From Georgenia soli (GTDB lineage: Bacteria; Actinomycetota; Actinomycetes; Actinomycetales; Actinomycetaceae), in contig NZ_PDJI01000004.1 in assembly GCF_002563695.1 (NCBI RefSeq), positions 620,001-684,000 of the forward strand: a DNA stretch of 64,000 nucleotides, in the 5' to 3' direction. Positions 30,762-34,921 of this stretch are shown piece by piece. Within the stretch, counting starts at the first letter, position 1. Each line of letters opens with the position of its first letter. Below the pieces are notes generated by a model. That model was not told the DNA's origin. It saw nothing but the letters and a program-made list of their open reading frames with translations, and did no database searches. Position numbers and translations under genes: made by a program.

Positions 30762-30765
<4 letters not shown>
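30379..30765 (-). CDS. ftsL: FtsL-like divisome protein
   Basis: A 128-aa bitopic protein in the ftsL position between rsmH and ftsI. A basic N-terminus of about 30 residues precedes one membrane helix ([28 protein letters not shown]) and a short periplasmic coiled coil ([46 protein letters not shown]). FtsL sequences are poorly conserved, so the call rests on position, topology and the [12 protein letters not shown] segment typical of actinobacterial FtsL. The ATG overlaps rsmH (ATGA). Confidence 0.88.
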
Positions 30766-31778
<1,013 letters not shown>

Positions 31779-31869
31779 GCGGTGCTCCTGGTCCGTTCGG
31801 GTCGTGGGTGGTGCTGGTGAGTGTCTGGTCGGGGGCCCTCCACCGCCCGACCAGGACTCCCTCCGCCTG

Positions 31870-31896
31870 CTCTGACGCCGGGGAAGTGCGTCAGAG
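31870..31896. other. hairpin in the mraZ-rsmH leader
   Basis: A perfect 9-bp inverted repeat, CTCTGACGC / GCGTCAGAG, with a 9-nt loop, inside the 184-nt region between mraZ and rsmH. No U-run follows. It could be an attenuator, a processing site or an mRNA stability element between mraZ and the rest of the operon. Confidence 0.5.
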
Positions 31897-31962
31897 TCGC
31901 GGTGAGAGACCTCGTCGTGCGGGGGTGGTGCCGGATCGGTTCGAACGGGAGCGTGGGGTACC

Positions 31963-32394
31963 TCAGAAGAGACCGGGGACCACCTCCTCCGCCGTCTCGG
32001 CGAAGGCCTGCTCCTGCTCGGCCAGGTACGTCTCCCACGCCGCCGCGTCCCAGATCTCGATCCGGGTACCGGCGCCGATCACGGCCAGGTCCCGCGTGAG
32101 CCCGGCGTACTGGCGCAGCGCCGAGGGGATCGTGATGCGGCCCTGCTTGTCCGGGACCTCGTCGGTGGCGCCGGAGAGGAAGACACGCAGGTAGTCGCGG
32201 GCCTGCTTGCTGGTGACGGGGGCCTGTCGCAGCCGGGAGTGCATGTCCTCGAACTCCCGCATGGGGAAGACGTAGAGGCACCGCTCCTGGCCGCGGGTGA
32301 GGACGATGCCGCCCGCCAGCTCCTCGCGGAACTTGGCGGGAAGGATGAGGCGCCCCTTGTCGTCGAGACGAGGTGCGTGAGTACCCAGGAACAC
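31963..32394 (-). CDS. mraZ: transcriptional regulator MraZ
   Basis: Ring-shaped AbrB-like DNA-binding protein that controls the dcw operon, first gene of the cluster. 143 aa, the standard length. Two SpoVT-AbrB repeats, each with the DxxxR signature: [25 protein letters not shown] and [24 protein letters not shown]. The GTG at 32394 has AGGTG 5 nt upstream and yields VFLGTHAP. Two TGG[A/G]G boxes 10 bp apart overlap a putative -10 in front of it, consistent with autorepression. A large tandem array of similar boxes lies about 350 bp further upstream. Confidence 0.96.
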
Positions 32395-32420
32395 ATCGGC
32401 ACCTCCCCTCCTTCTCCGCT

Positions 32421-32449
32421 CGCCACCAGTGGGCCCCACATTACTCCAC
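32421..32449 (-). promoter_or_regulatory. mraZ: mraZ promoter with MraZ-type operator boxes
   Basis: On the minus strand GTGGAG (32444-32449) and GTGGGG (32434-32439) are direct repeats with a 4-nt gap, i.e. a 10-bp period as in known MraZ operators (TGGGN repeats with 5-nt spacers in E. coli). A third, GTGGCG (32421-32426), is out of phase by 3 bp. A putative -10, TAATGT (32438-32443), lies across the first two boxes. Confidence 0.6.
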
Positions 32450-32746
32450 TTCCCTCCCCTGCGCAGGAGTTTGTGGGCACTTCTTGCAGATTCGGCACGC
32501 GAAATCGCAGGTGAACGCTGGTGGGGCAGGGTGGAGGGAAAAACAACGCCGGCGCCCGGTGCTGGCGTCCGCAGTGGCGGCCTCGTGCGAGCGACGGGAG
32601 GGCGGCCTCGCCCGGATCGACAACGTCCTGACTCCACCGGCGCGAAAGGTCCACCGGCGGGGCGACGAGGTTGCCGTTCTGGTCAGATTCCGGCGCTCGA
32701 CGAACCATTTCGGCCAGCTCGTCCGGCGTTCGTGAGAGGAGCACCC

Positions 32747-33120
32747 GGCCGGTGGAGCGGAGTGGAGACCGGCCGGTGGAGCGGAGTGGGGGCCGCCCGG
32801 TGGAGCGAAGTGGAGACCGCCCGGTGGAGCGGAGTGGAGACCGCCCGGTGGAGCGGAGTGGAGACCGCCCGGTGGAGCGGAGTGGGGACCGCCCGGTGGA
32901 GCGGAGTGGAGACCGCCCGGTGGAGCGGCGTGGAGACCGGCCGGTGGGGCGAAGTGGAGACCGGCCGGTGGAGCGGAGTGGGGACCGGCCGGTGGGGCGA
33001 AGTGGAGACCGGCCGGTGGAGCGAAGTGGAGACCGCCCGGTGGAGCGGCGTGGAGACCGCCCGGTGGAGCGAAGTGGAGACCGGCCGGTGGAGCGAAGTG
33101 GAGACCGCCCGGTGGGGCTA
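32747..33120. repeat. 24-bp tandem array (about 15.6 units) of paired GTGG[A/G]G boxes upstream of the dcw operon
   Basis: Fifteen full units and one degenerate unit, first hexamer at 32752 and then every 24 bp to 33112. Each full unit reads GTGG[A/G]G, 4 nt (CGGA, CGAA or CGGC), GTGG[A/G]G, 8 nt. All variation inside the hexamers is A/G at position 5. All reading frames are open because the unit is a multiple of 3 and lacks stops, but no SD or known protein is evident. This fills most of the 841-bp gap between mraZ and the DUF3040 gene. I see nothing recognisable in 32450-32746. Confidence 0.95.
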
Positions 33121-33181
33121 GGTGACGTCCCCGCCGGCAGTCACGCTGACGACGACCGGCGCCCGCCCGGAGAACGAGCAA

Positions 33182-33203
33182 CCCGTGACCGTCCGGTCAC
33201 GGG
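33182..33203 (-). terminator. hairpin downstream of the DUF3040 gene
   Basis: A perfect 9-bp stem, CCCGTGACC / GGTCACGGG, with a 4-nt loop, 33 bp beyond the DUF3040 stop. A short T-containing stretch follows on the minus strand. It separates DUF3040 transcription from the tandem array. Confidence 0.6.
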
Positions 33204-33235
33204 CTGTGTCAGCGAGATGAACGACGAGTGGGGCG

Positions 33236-33616
33236 TCAGCGCCCGCGCTCCTCGTTGCGCCGGTTCCACCGGTCCTCCTGACGCTGCATGAACCCGGCGG
33301 ACGGGGCCTTGCCCCCCGGACGGCGAACGCCGCCGCGGCCGCCGCCCTTGGTCGCGCCGCCGCGCGGGCCGGTGATCGCGAGCATGACGCCACCGAGCAT
33401 CGCCAGGAACCCGAGCACGCCCAGCCAGACGTAGCCAGTCGCGACACCGCCGACCAGGCCGCCGAGGCCGACCAGGAAGAGGAGGACGCCCAGGCTGAGC
33501 CTGCGCACGTTCGGCCGCGGCTTGTCGGCGAGCGTGTTGGCGAGCTTGGGGTCGTCGGAGCGCAGCTGCTGCTCCATCTGCTGGAGCATCCGCTGCTCAT
33601 ATTCGGAGAGAGGCAT
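33236..33616 (-). CDS. DUF3040 membrane protein
   Basis: A 126-aa actinobacterial protein. The N-terminus PLSEYEQRMLQQMEQQLRSDDPKLANTL is the DUF3040 signature. Two hydrophobic segments follow (LSLGVLLFLVGLGGLVGGVATGYVWLGVLGFLAMLGGVMLAIT), then a Gly/Arg-rich tail ending ERGR. Function unknown; the family commonly sits next to dinB or the mraZ region in actinobacteria. The ATG at 33616 has GGAGG 4 nt upstream. Confidence 0.9.
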   Translation of the reverse strand: MPLSEYEQRMLQQMEQQLRSDDPKLANTLADKPRPNVRRLSLGVLLFLVGLGGLVGGVATGYVWLGVLGFLAMLGGVMLAITGPRGGATKGGGRGGVRRPGGKAPSAGFMQRQEDRWNRRNEERGR

Positions 33617-33664
33617 TGGACCTCCAGTCTCGCCACGAGACCGCCTGTCACTGGCGGTATGGGA

Positions 33665-34921
33665 TCAGGATAGGTCTCCGGAGGCGCTGTTGAAAGCGGA
33701 GTGCCGTTTGTTGTCGAGCAACGTGGCCGGACGCACGACCTGGGAGCCGAACCGGGCCCTCACACCGTCCATGGCGCGCTCCGCGAGCGCCCTTTGCGGG
33801 TCGTCGTCGAGGGCGCCCTGCACGCCCGTGGTCGCGGCCGGCGCGAGTCGCTCCGCCCGGACGCCCAGCAGCCGGACACCGGCCGTCGGGATGTCGACGC
33901 CGGCGAGCAGGGCCCGGGCGGCGGCGTTGATGTCGTGCGCGAGGTCGGTGGGCGCTTGAAGGGTGCGGGAGCGGCTCAGGGTGGTGAAGTCCGCGTGGCG
34001 GACCTTGATCGCGACCGTCCACGCGACCATCTCCTCCGCGCGCAGGCGCGCGGCGCACTCGTGCGCCTGGCGCAGCAGCATCTTCTCCAGGTGCGCCCGG
34101 TCGGTGACGTCCTCGGCGAACGTCGTCTCCGTGCCGACGGACTTCTCCACCCGCGTCGGCTGGACCTGGCGCGCGTCCCTGCCCCACGCCAGCTCGTGGA
34201 GCCGCTGCCCCGCGGCCACCCCCAGGGTCTGGTGCAGCACCGTGACGGGCGTGGCCGCCAGCTGGGCCACGGTCTCGATCCCGTGCCGCTCGAGCGCCTC
34301 CTGGGTCTTCTCCCCCACCCCCCACAGCGCCCCGACCGGGAGCGAGTGGAGGAACGGCACCGTGGCGTCGGCCGGCACGAGGAGCAGACCGTCGGGCTTG
34401 GCGTGCGTCGAGGCGAGCTTGGCCACGTGCTTGCTGGCGGCGACGCCCACGGAGGCGGGGACGCCGCACCGCCGGTGCACCTCCTGCCGGACCCAGCGGG
34501 CGATCTCGACCGGCCGCCCCATGCGCCGCACCGCGCCTGCGACGTCGAGGAACGCCTCGTCGATGCTCACCTGCTCCATGACGGGGGTGACCTCGGACAG
34601 CACCGACATGACCTCGCGCGAGACCTCGCCGTAACGGTCGTGCCGGCCGGGCAGCACCACCGCCTGCGGGCACAGGATCTTCGCCCGCGCGGCGGGCATC
34701 GCGGAGTGGACGCCGAAGGCCCGGGCCTCGTAGCTCGCGGCCGCCACCACGCCCCGGTGGTCACCACCGACGATGACGGGCCGGCCGCGAAGCTCGGGAC
34801 GGTCGAGCAGCTCGACGGAGACGAAGAAGGCGTCCATGTCGACGTGGAGGATGGTGCAGCCGGTGTCGTCCTCGCCCCAGGACCGTCTGGCCGCGGCGCT
34901 GCGGGGAGCTCTGCTCACCAC
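33665..34921 (-). CDS. dinB: DNA polymerase IV (Y-family translesion polymerase)
   Basis: Error-prone lesion-bypass polymerase, 418 aa. Catalytic motifs: ILHVDMDAFFVSVELLDRPELRGRPVIVGG and SIDEAFLDVAGA, with the steric-gate region FFVSVE. Thumb segment VGVAASKHVAKLASTHAKPDGLL and the little-finger domain follow (KSVGTETTFAEDV...). No QLSLF-like clamp peptide is evident at the C-terminus. Two GTG codons at 34921 and 34918 follow GAGAGGGG; either may start. No LexA box was seen in the 42-bp divergent intergenic region. Confidence 0.93.
   Translation of the reverse strand: MVSRAPRSAAARRSWGEDDTGCTILHVDMDAFFVSVELLDRPELRGRPVIVGGDHRGVVAAASYEARAFGVHSAMPAARAKILCPQAVVLPGRHDRYGEVSREVMSVLSEVTPVMEQVSIDEAFLDVAGAVRRMGRPVEIARWVRQEVHRRCGVPASVGVAASKHVAKLASTHAKPDGLLLVPADATVPFLHSLPVGALWGVGEKTQEALERHGIETVAQLAATPVTVLHQTLGVAAGQRLHELAWGRDARQVQPTRVEKSVGTETTFAEDVTDRAHLEKMLLRQAHECAARLRAEEMVAWTVAIKVRHADFTTLSRSRTLQAPTDLAHDINAAARALLAGVDIPTAGVRLLGVRAERLAPAATTGVQGALDDDPQRALAERAMDGVRARFGSQVVRPATLLDNKRHSAFNSASGDLS

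Follow-up and report, generated by a model that had tools for sequence, protein, structure and literature searches.

What does a tandem array of paired, MraZ-like boxes do in front of mraZ in the actinomycete Georgenia soli? The window analyzed here (a stretch of 64,000 nucleotides, positions 620,001 to 684,000 of contig NZ_PDJI01000004.1) carries an array of 24-bp units located between the gene for a DUF3040 protein and mraZ, on the strand opposite to mraZ. Along the minus strand, the order is DUF3040, the array, an isolated pair of boxes that we denote R1, the promoter operator, mraZ and rsmH. The coordinates of these features are summarized in Table 1.

Table 1. Features of the mraZ region, with positions given within the window
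Feature	Position	Strand	Remarks
rsmH (mraW), next gene after mraZ	30762..31778	-	PF01795
mraZ	31963..32394	-	Pfam PF02381, 3e-39; probable GTG start, from alignment to relatives beginning MFLGT
Promoter operator, GTGGAG-TAAT-GTGGGG	32434..32449	-	two exact boxes
Third element, conserved and lying between R1 and the promoter operator, TTCACCTGCG in the window (usual form YTGACCTGCG)	32506..32515	-	
R1, isolated inverted pair GTGGGG-CAGG-GTGGAG	32521..32536	+	87 bp upstream of the promoter operator, start to start
Tandem array, 15 full 24-bp units	32752..33111	+	each unit GTGGRG-N4-GTGGRG plus an 8-nt spacer; 15 pairs, 30 boxes
Degenerate 16th unit	33112..33135	+	first box GTGGGG intact, second lost
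GC-rich palindrome CCCGTGACCG-TC-CGGTCACGGG	33182..33203	-	3' of the DUF3040 stop; found by eye
DUF3040 gene, neighbor upstream of mraZ	33236..33616	-	codirectional with mraZ

Tandem Repeats Finder places the array at 32745-33115, with a period of 24, 15.5 copies and 91% matches, and the full units start at 32752 + 24n (n = 0-14). The sequence-only reading had described 15 full units and one degenerate unit, with two GTGG[A/G]G hexamers 10 bp apart in each full unit, and the program together with a listing of the units confirms this description. Its observation that the hexamers vary only by A or G at position 5 holds for all 30 hexamers of the full units, of which 25 are GTGGAG and 5 are GTGGGG, and the copy that it had noticed on the opposite strand at the mraZ promoter is indeed present. 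Outside the hexamers, the unit varies at four columns, equally divided between the 4-nt gap and the 8-nt spacer. No second such array occurs in the genome: the core pattern of the unit, with up to two mismatches allowed, yields 15 matches in the array and 4 scattered single matches elsewhere, and the reversed control pattern also yields 4 genome matches. A search of the 4.27-Mb genome for the exact pair GTGGRG-N4-GTGGRG yields 22 matches, 17 of them within 670 bp upstream of mraZ (one at the promoter, the inverted R1 and 15 in the array); the 5 matches elsewhere are fewer than the 13 obtained with the reversed control pattern.

The palindrome downstream of DUF3040 resembles a terminator hairpin without a U tract and is absent from the output of the promoter and terminator (U-tract) scan, which reported nothing for 32300-33300. 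Because this palindrome follows the DUF3040 stop, the array lies beyond a likely terminator. A search of 31700-33700 against Rfam gave the mraW RNA as the sole match, with no RNA structure at the array; this motif (RF01746, 31833-31928 on the minus strand, 54 bits against a gathering threshold of 50) is located between mraZ and rsmH.

The boxes of E. coli MraZ are commonly worded as TGGGN. In the available portions of the published accounts, known MraZ sites are direct repeats with a 10-bp period and a GTG core that precede mraZ and are bound by MraZ octamers (PMC7761207, PMC5282649). Repeats of the same period with GTG/TGG cores are found in each unit of the array, in R1 and at the promoter, in front of mraZ and the dcw operon, a likeness shared with the MraZ boxes of Mollicutes and Burkholderia cenocepacia and, generally, of E. 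coli. Unlike these boxes, of which the accessible parts of the accounts describe three or four in one run at the promoter, the sites upstream of the promoter here consist of two boxes, are inverted, lie from 87 to more than 600 bp upstream and include a 15-fold array; R1 and the array contain pairs only, with no series of three or more boxes at 10-bp intervals. A four-box form also appears in the titles of the structures of Mycoplasma genitalium MraZ bound to its promoter (PDB 9sz7 and 9r4j). Within the promoter operator, TAATGT fits the TANNNT form of a -10 element and is presumed to be the mraZ -10.

The relatives of Georgenia soli show which part of the unit is constrained. The closest named relative among the loci returned, from which records of the window's own genome were possibly excluded, is Georgenia sp. 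EYE_87, with a 92% identical MraZ. At least one exact inverted pair is present upstream of mraZ in all 8 same-genus genomes examined. In one of these (G001), R1 is accompanied by four pairs at 24 bp, with a spacer unlike that of the window. In G002, three pairs are spaced at 45 bp and a further one is present, and in G004 four pairs are separated by 46-56 bp; two inverted pairs occur in each of G003 and G005, and one in each of G006, G007 and G008. The copy number accordingly differs between close species, 15 versus 4, and the boxes are retained across species while spacers, periods and copy numbers turn over. The sequence-only reading had staked the MraZ connection on the pairing being kept in relatives, with conserved hexamers and variable copy numbers, and this is the pattern that the comparison reveals, with spacers and periods varying as well. 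Of the nine same-genus genomes, that of the window included, only the window and G001 have an exact R1 pair no more than 140 bp from the operator; G002, G004 and G008 have one box at 86-88 bp in the single-box test described below, and the others have at most a degenerate R1.

These comparisons bear on the possibility that the array is a neutral minisatellite, in which slippage copied one site-bearing unit with no consequence. The near-identical head-to-tail units, 91% alike, are typical of such a repeat, and slippage was probably the source of the copies. Against this stand the pairs of the relatives, which have other spacers or other periods (24 bp in G001, where the spacer is different; 45 in G002; 46-56 in G004; 19 in G588; 23 in others), and the location of tandem double pairs upstream of mraZ in 12 of the 16 class genomes and 15 of the 16 family genomes that have any. 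The retention of the boxes makes the plain slippage minisatellite that the sequence-only reading had kept as an option very improbable.

We consider it extremely improbable that the array reflects another DNA-binding protein, a G-quadruplex or a repeated open reading frame. Two frames on the array strand are open across the array, as expected with a period of 24, which is divisible by 3, and a G-quadruplex near the Staphylococcus aureus mraZ promoter is mentioned in the accessible part of a report (PMC11796246). Nevertheless, GTGGAG, which accounts for 25 of the 30 boxes, contains no three consecutive G, the promoter operator shows the same fixed 10-bp pairing, and the 12 genomes of one genus that lack mraZ also lack such pairs upstream of rsmH. 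A coding repeat was rejected on two further grounds: the periods of 19, 23 and 50 bp in relatives break any frame, and the 206-aa open reading frame of the array, the one tested, has no Pfam match.

To place the locus in a broader context, we surveyed inverted pairs across the class. The discovery set consisted of the best 80 of 571 confirmed stretches, ranked by MraZ similarity, and leans to close relatives; the validation set comprised 60 regions picked from a class-wide draw, mostly one per genus (some genera occur two or three times), along with 29 loci of that draw. Five loci were dropped, L025, L027, L032 and L034, in which no mraZ was found, and L200, which is too short; 4 loci without an operator under the first operator rule were also dropped, and a wider rule was applied in the phasing test. 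The 195 usable loci were clustered by upstream similarity into 125 clusters.

Among the best 80 of the 571 loci, 43 contain a total of 59 inverted pairs within 600 bp upstream of mraZ (48 kb), and 74 have a pair on the promoter strand; no locus has a pair in the 175 kb further upstream or the 230 kb downstream, and each of 30 dinucleotide shuffles gave 0 to 1 loci with a pair. Across the 125 cluster representatives, promoter-strand pairs are present in 114 (51 of 55 in the discovery set, 45 of 51 in the validation set and 18 of 19 near relatives) and inverted pairs in 55 (27 of 55, 14 of 51 and 14 of 19, respectively), with an exact inverted pair not found in the other 70. The strand bias is pronounced: between 50 and 600 bp upstream of the operator, 55 representatives have 96 inverted pairs versus 2 same-strand pairs in 2 representatives. 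The dominant hexamer spacing is 10 bp on both strands. The promoter strand shows a 10-20-30 ladder, and the inverted strand peaks at 10 bp and then at 12, 22-24, 34 and 44. A 20-bp distance hardly ever occurs on the inverted strand (in 1 of the 55 representatives of the discovery set, in none of the 51 of the validation set and in none of the 19 near relatives), which identifies the remote sites as pairs.

The presence of the pairs appears to follow that of mraZ. In all 12 genomes in which mraZ was not detected, no pair was found within about 1480 bp upstream of rsmH; these genomes belong to one genus and do not amount to 12 independent cases. They form one family of loci (L218-L229, family f37; genomes of 6-10 Mb) in which rsmH is kept, and in two of them the search for mraZ was repeated with a profile, with the same outcome. 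Among the 4 genomes examined that have a diverged mraZ, 3 have a forward pair and none has an inverted one. In the 22 loci from other classes of the phylum, the exact forward pair occurs in 7 and the exact inverted pair in 2, counts that refer to the exact motif.

The possibility that the remote pairs are second promoters was also considered. The commonest promoter gap among the cluster representatives is TAAA, and the gaps were listed for 87 of the 94 remote pairs, none of them beginning with TA; we therefore rejected this possibility. In one locus, L074, a remote inverted pair 86 bp upstream of the operator has the gap TAAA as in promoter operators; this pair might be a divergent promoter, and a few remote pairs could be promoter-like.

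Pattern searches for tandem double pairs delineate how exceptional the array is. With periods of 22-28 bp allowed, 394 class genomes yielded 16 with a double pair, 12 of which have it upstream of mraZ, with periods of 22-24; in three, it is located elsewhere, in G-rich simple repeats, and one of these three genomes lacks mraZ. The reversed control pattern gave 6 matches in 6 class genomes and 3 in 3 family genomes. A separate search of 213 family genomes, with periods of 22-52 bp allowed, found 16 with a double pair, 15 of them upstream of mraZ. Some individual loci depart from the common layout. In L235 (G174), the remaining one of the 16 class genomes, the double pair, with a 24-bp step, is not upstream but some 600 bp past the mraZ start, on the same strand as mraZ. 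In L272 (G588), the remaining one of the 16 family genomes, five inverted pairs with a 19-bp period follow DUF3040 at 1500-1603 and run to the end of the contig; they form another independent array, which may be the cause of the break in the assembly. Several genomes of a single family (f22; L237 and L239-L242) carry a four-box distal element, CCCCAC-N4-CCCCAC-N6/7-CCCCAC-N4-CCCCAC, about 215-295 bp upstream of mraZ.

The distinct spacings between successive pairs were compiled for an enlarged set of 220 loci in 100 clusters, which includes loci fetched for their double pairs, so that pair counts in this set are biased upward. They fall at 22-25 bp (17 cases), 33-34 (3), 43-50 (7), 56-58 (4) and 80 (1). 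Within 700 bp, there are 16 pairs in the cluster of the window and at most 4 in every other cluster of this set, and one locus, L271, has six pairs within about 815 bp. Because 24 bp falls within the usual neighbor spacing of 22-25 bp, the period of the array is ordinary and the copy number is the exception.

The distance that separates the promoter operator from the closest inverted pair is phased with the DNA helix. For the 31 of the 125 clusters with an exact inverted pair within 140 bp, this distance, taken start to start, is 85-88 bp in 17 clusters, the class to which R1 of the window belongs, 97-99 in 6, 107-108 in 2, 118-120 in 5 and 130 in one. The best period is 10.7 bp, with R 0.878, a value that none of 2000 uniform nulls attained. 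Coarser grouping into 64 clusters leaves 21 values, with R 0.864 (0 of 2000 nulls), and at the coarsest clustering, where the 5 values left provide little power, 55 of 2000 nulls match the observation. Among the other 94 clusters, 40 have a member with exactly one CYCCAC 60-140 bp upstream; these distances are 76-77 bp (6), 85-89 (24), 96-99 (7), 119-121 (2) and 130 (1), and V is 0.795, a value not attained in any of 5000 nulls. Some of the boxes in the 77- and 97-bp classes could each be one member of a pair with a degenerate partner. The 87-bp class itself may stem from common descent, so that the evidence for phasing rests on the other classes: when the distances of 84-90 bp are left out (those used, from the pair and single-box tests, were entered by hand), V is 0.836 in both sets at 10.6 bp. 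A register effect of the boxes themselves, with a period of 10.0 bp, was considered in place of helical phasing and rejected, given that V drops to 0.517 and 0.573 at 10.0 bp, although still only 4 and 0 of 5000 nulls reach these values without the 84-90 bp class, and that the remote sites are pairs rather than ladders. Thus, R1-type sites across the class are separated from the main operator by helical-repeat spacing, as in loop operators.

A third conserved element, with the core ACCTGS, stands between R1 and the operator. It is found 62-65 bp before the operator in 31 of the 125 cluster representatives, versus about 0.4 expected from its density further upstream, and occurs at 73, 75 and 85 bp in three loci whose R1 lies at a greater distance (107, 120 and 130 bp), where it has shifted in helical steps.

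This arrangement invites an alternative in which MraZ, alone or with a partner at TGACCTGCG, would bind R1 and the distal pairs at a low level and help RNA polymerase in a class I-like manner, with the promoter operator repressing only at high MraZ. Class I activators occupy such upstream positions with helical phasing; distal pairs and arrays lie far beyond the usual activator positions. The location of R1, which is phased at 10.6 bp and precedes the presumed start site by roughly 100 bp, and the third element in phase between R1 and the promoter both agree with activation, and MraZ is described as an activator in mycoplasmas in the available portion of PMC7761207. On the other side of the balance are the distances of R1 that reach 118-130 bp, the reach of the distal pairs and arrays, and the repressor role of MraZ in E. 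coli and M. genitalium, as given in the accessible part of PMC8475190. On the whole, we regard activation as quite unlikely.

Beyond R1, the phasing fades. Distal pairs, at 140-320 bp, are weakly phased (R 0.389, 21 of 1000 nulls), and with coarser clusters the best period becomes 8.8 and then 9.9 without significance, that is, the result depends on the clustering. The array pairs, 318 to 654 bp from the operator in 24-bp steps, are out of helical register with the promoter; because the step is no multiple of the helical turn, they face different sides of the DNA. This feature would suit a decoy, that is, an array that titrates free MraZ without contact with the promoter, so that more copies would entail weaker autorepression and more division proteins. 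Fifteen pairs confront a single promoter operator, the array begins 318 bp from the operator with its pairs out of mutual register, distal pairs are at best weakly phased, and the copy number ranges from 15 to 4 between close species. A decoy, however, requires no fixed place, strand or spacing, whereas double pairs are nearly confined to the region upstream of mraZ, remote pairs are inverted with very few exceptions and have spacings of 22-25, 33-34 or 43-50 bp, and the phasing of R1 to the promoter is strong throughout the class; a pure decoy is therefore unlikely. The sequence-only reading had proposed that MraZ binds the array and had offered two roles for it, decoy and extended operator. 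The comparison strongly supports the identification of the boxes as MraZ-type operators, and the sequence fits either role. R1 and the class-wide architecture, which that reading had missed, lead us to favor auxiliary operators over a pure decoy.

We estimate at roughly 0.55 the probability of our main reading, namely, that the array consists of amplified auxiliary MraZ operators that, together with the promoter operator, form a helically phased complex through which the dcw operon is autoregulated. That the remote sites are MraZ-type sites is well supported by the sequence comparisons. The sites are identifiable as such, concentrate at mraZ, are biased to one strand and are conserved despite the turnover of spacers, and the promoter-near site is phased. 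Under the auxiliary-operator reading, each 24-bp unit would constitute a single MraZ site of two boxes, in the opposite orientation to the promoter operator, which overlaps the presumed -10. The set in many actinomycetes would comprise the promoter operator, one inverted site that precedes it by about 87 bp or by whole helical turns more, and, often, further inverted pairs, which in Georgenia soli would have been multiplied to 15 by tandem duplication. Ring-shaped MraZ oligomers would occupy the pairs, and MraZ bound at the operator and at R1 would meet on one face of the DNA, forming a short loop or a wrapped complex by which the dcw promoter is shut. The array would make more MraZ available locally and provide other partners for loop formation, such that the distal pairs and the array feed or stabilize the complex, and the copy number would set the strength and earliness of autorepression. 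The 24-bp step turns each pair by about 100 degrees, so the array would present pairs on all faces and some unit might always be in phase, which we offer only as a suggestion. More tentatively, at somewhat less than even odds, actinomycetes may possess a dedicated MraZ architecture that combines the promoter operator, a phase-locked inverted site, the third element with its partner and a bank of distal pairs, with the copy number as an evolving dial and the 15-unit array as its extreme.

Several observations count against the auxiliary-operator reading. The remote sites have two boxes versus three or four in a row at described MraZ sites; the 24-bp step is out of register, distal pairs are weakly phased and an exact R1 is present in only one of the eight same-genus genomes; 70 of the 125 representatives have no exact inverted pair, and none of the 4 genomes examined with a diverged mraZ has an inverted pair. 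In addition, helical phasing would fit an upstream activation site as well, and, according to the available part of PMC7761207, the MraZ of Burkholderia cenocepacia does not bind a fragment from -386 to -136.

Known regulatory systems offer partial parallels. The lac, gal and deo systems employ auxiliary operators and DNA looping, and the present locus resembles them in having a promoter operator and remote operators of the same sequence at helically phased spacing; it differs in the protein family involved and in that the auxiliary site is inverted, consists of two boxes and can be multiplied in tandem. The datA locus is a titration array for DnaA, similar to the array in that clustered sites could buffer a regulator; here, in contrast, the array lies upstream of the gene for the regulator itself and has a strand bias.

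MraZ-type sites that are inverted and helically phased are widespread in actinomycetes, with the present array as their extreme, and apparently undescribed within the openly licensed literature: in the titles and openings of abstracts of that literature, no description of inverted or remote MraZ sites in actinomycetes was found among the matches listed. Although MraZ heads the dcw operon in many bacteria, little is understood of how it determines the amount of division proteins. Should the remote inverted sites prove to be genuine MraZ sites, a single run of boxes at the promoter would not be the full picture in a large group of bacteria. Owing to the helical phasing, the looping or wrapping model can be tested by simple insertions of 5 bp versus 10 bp, and the copy numbers of 15 and 4 in close species provide a natural case for measuring the effect of the number of sites on a division operon.
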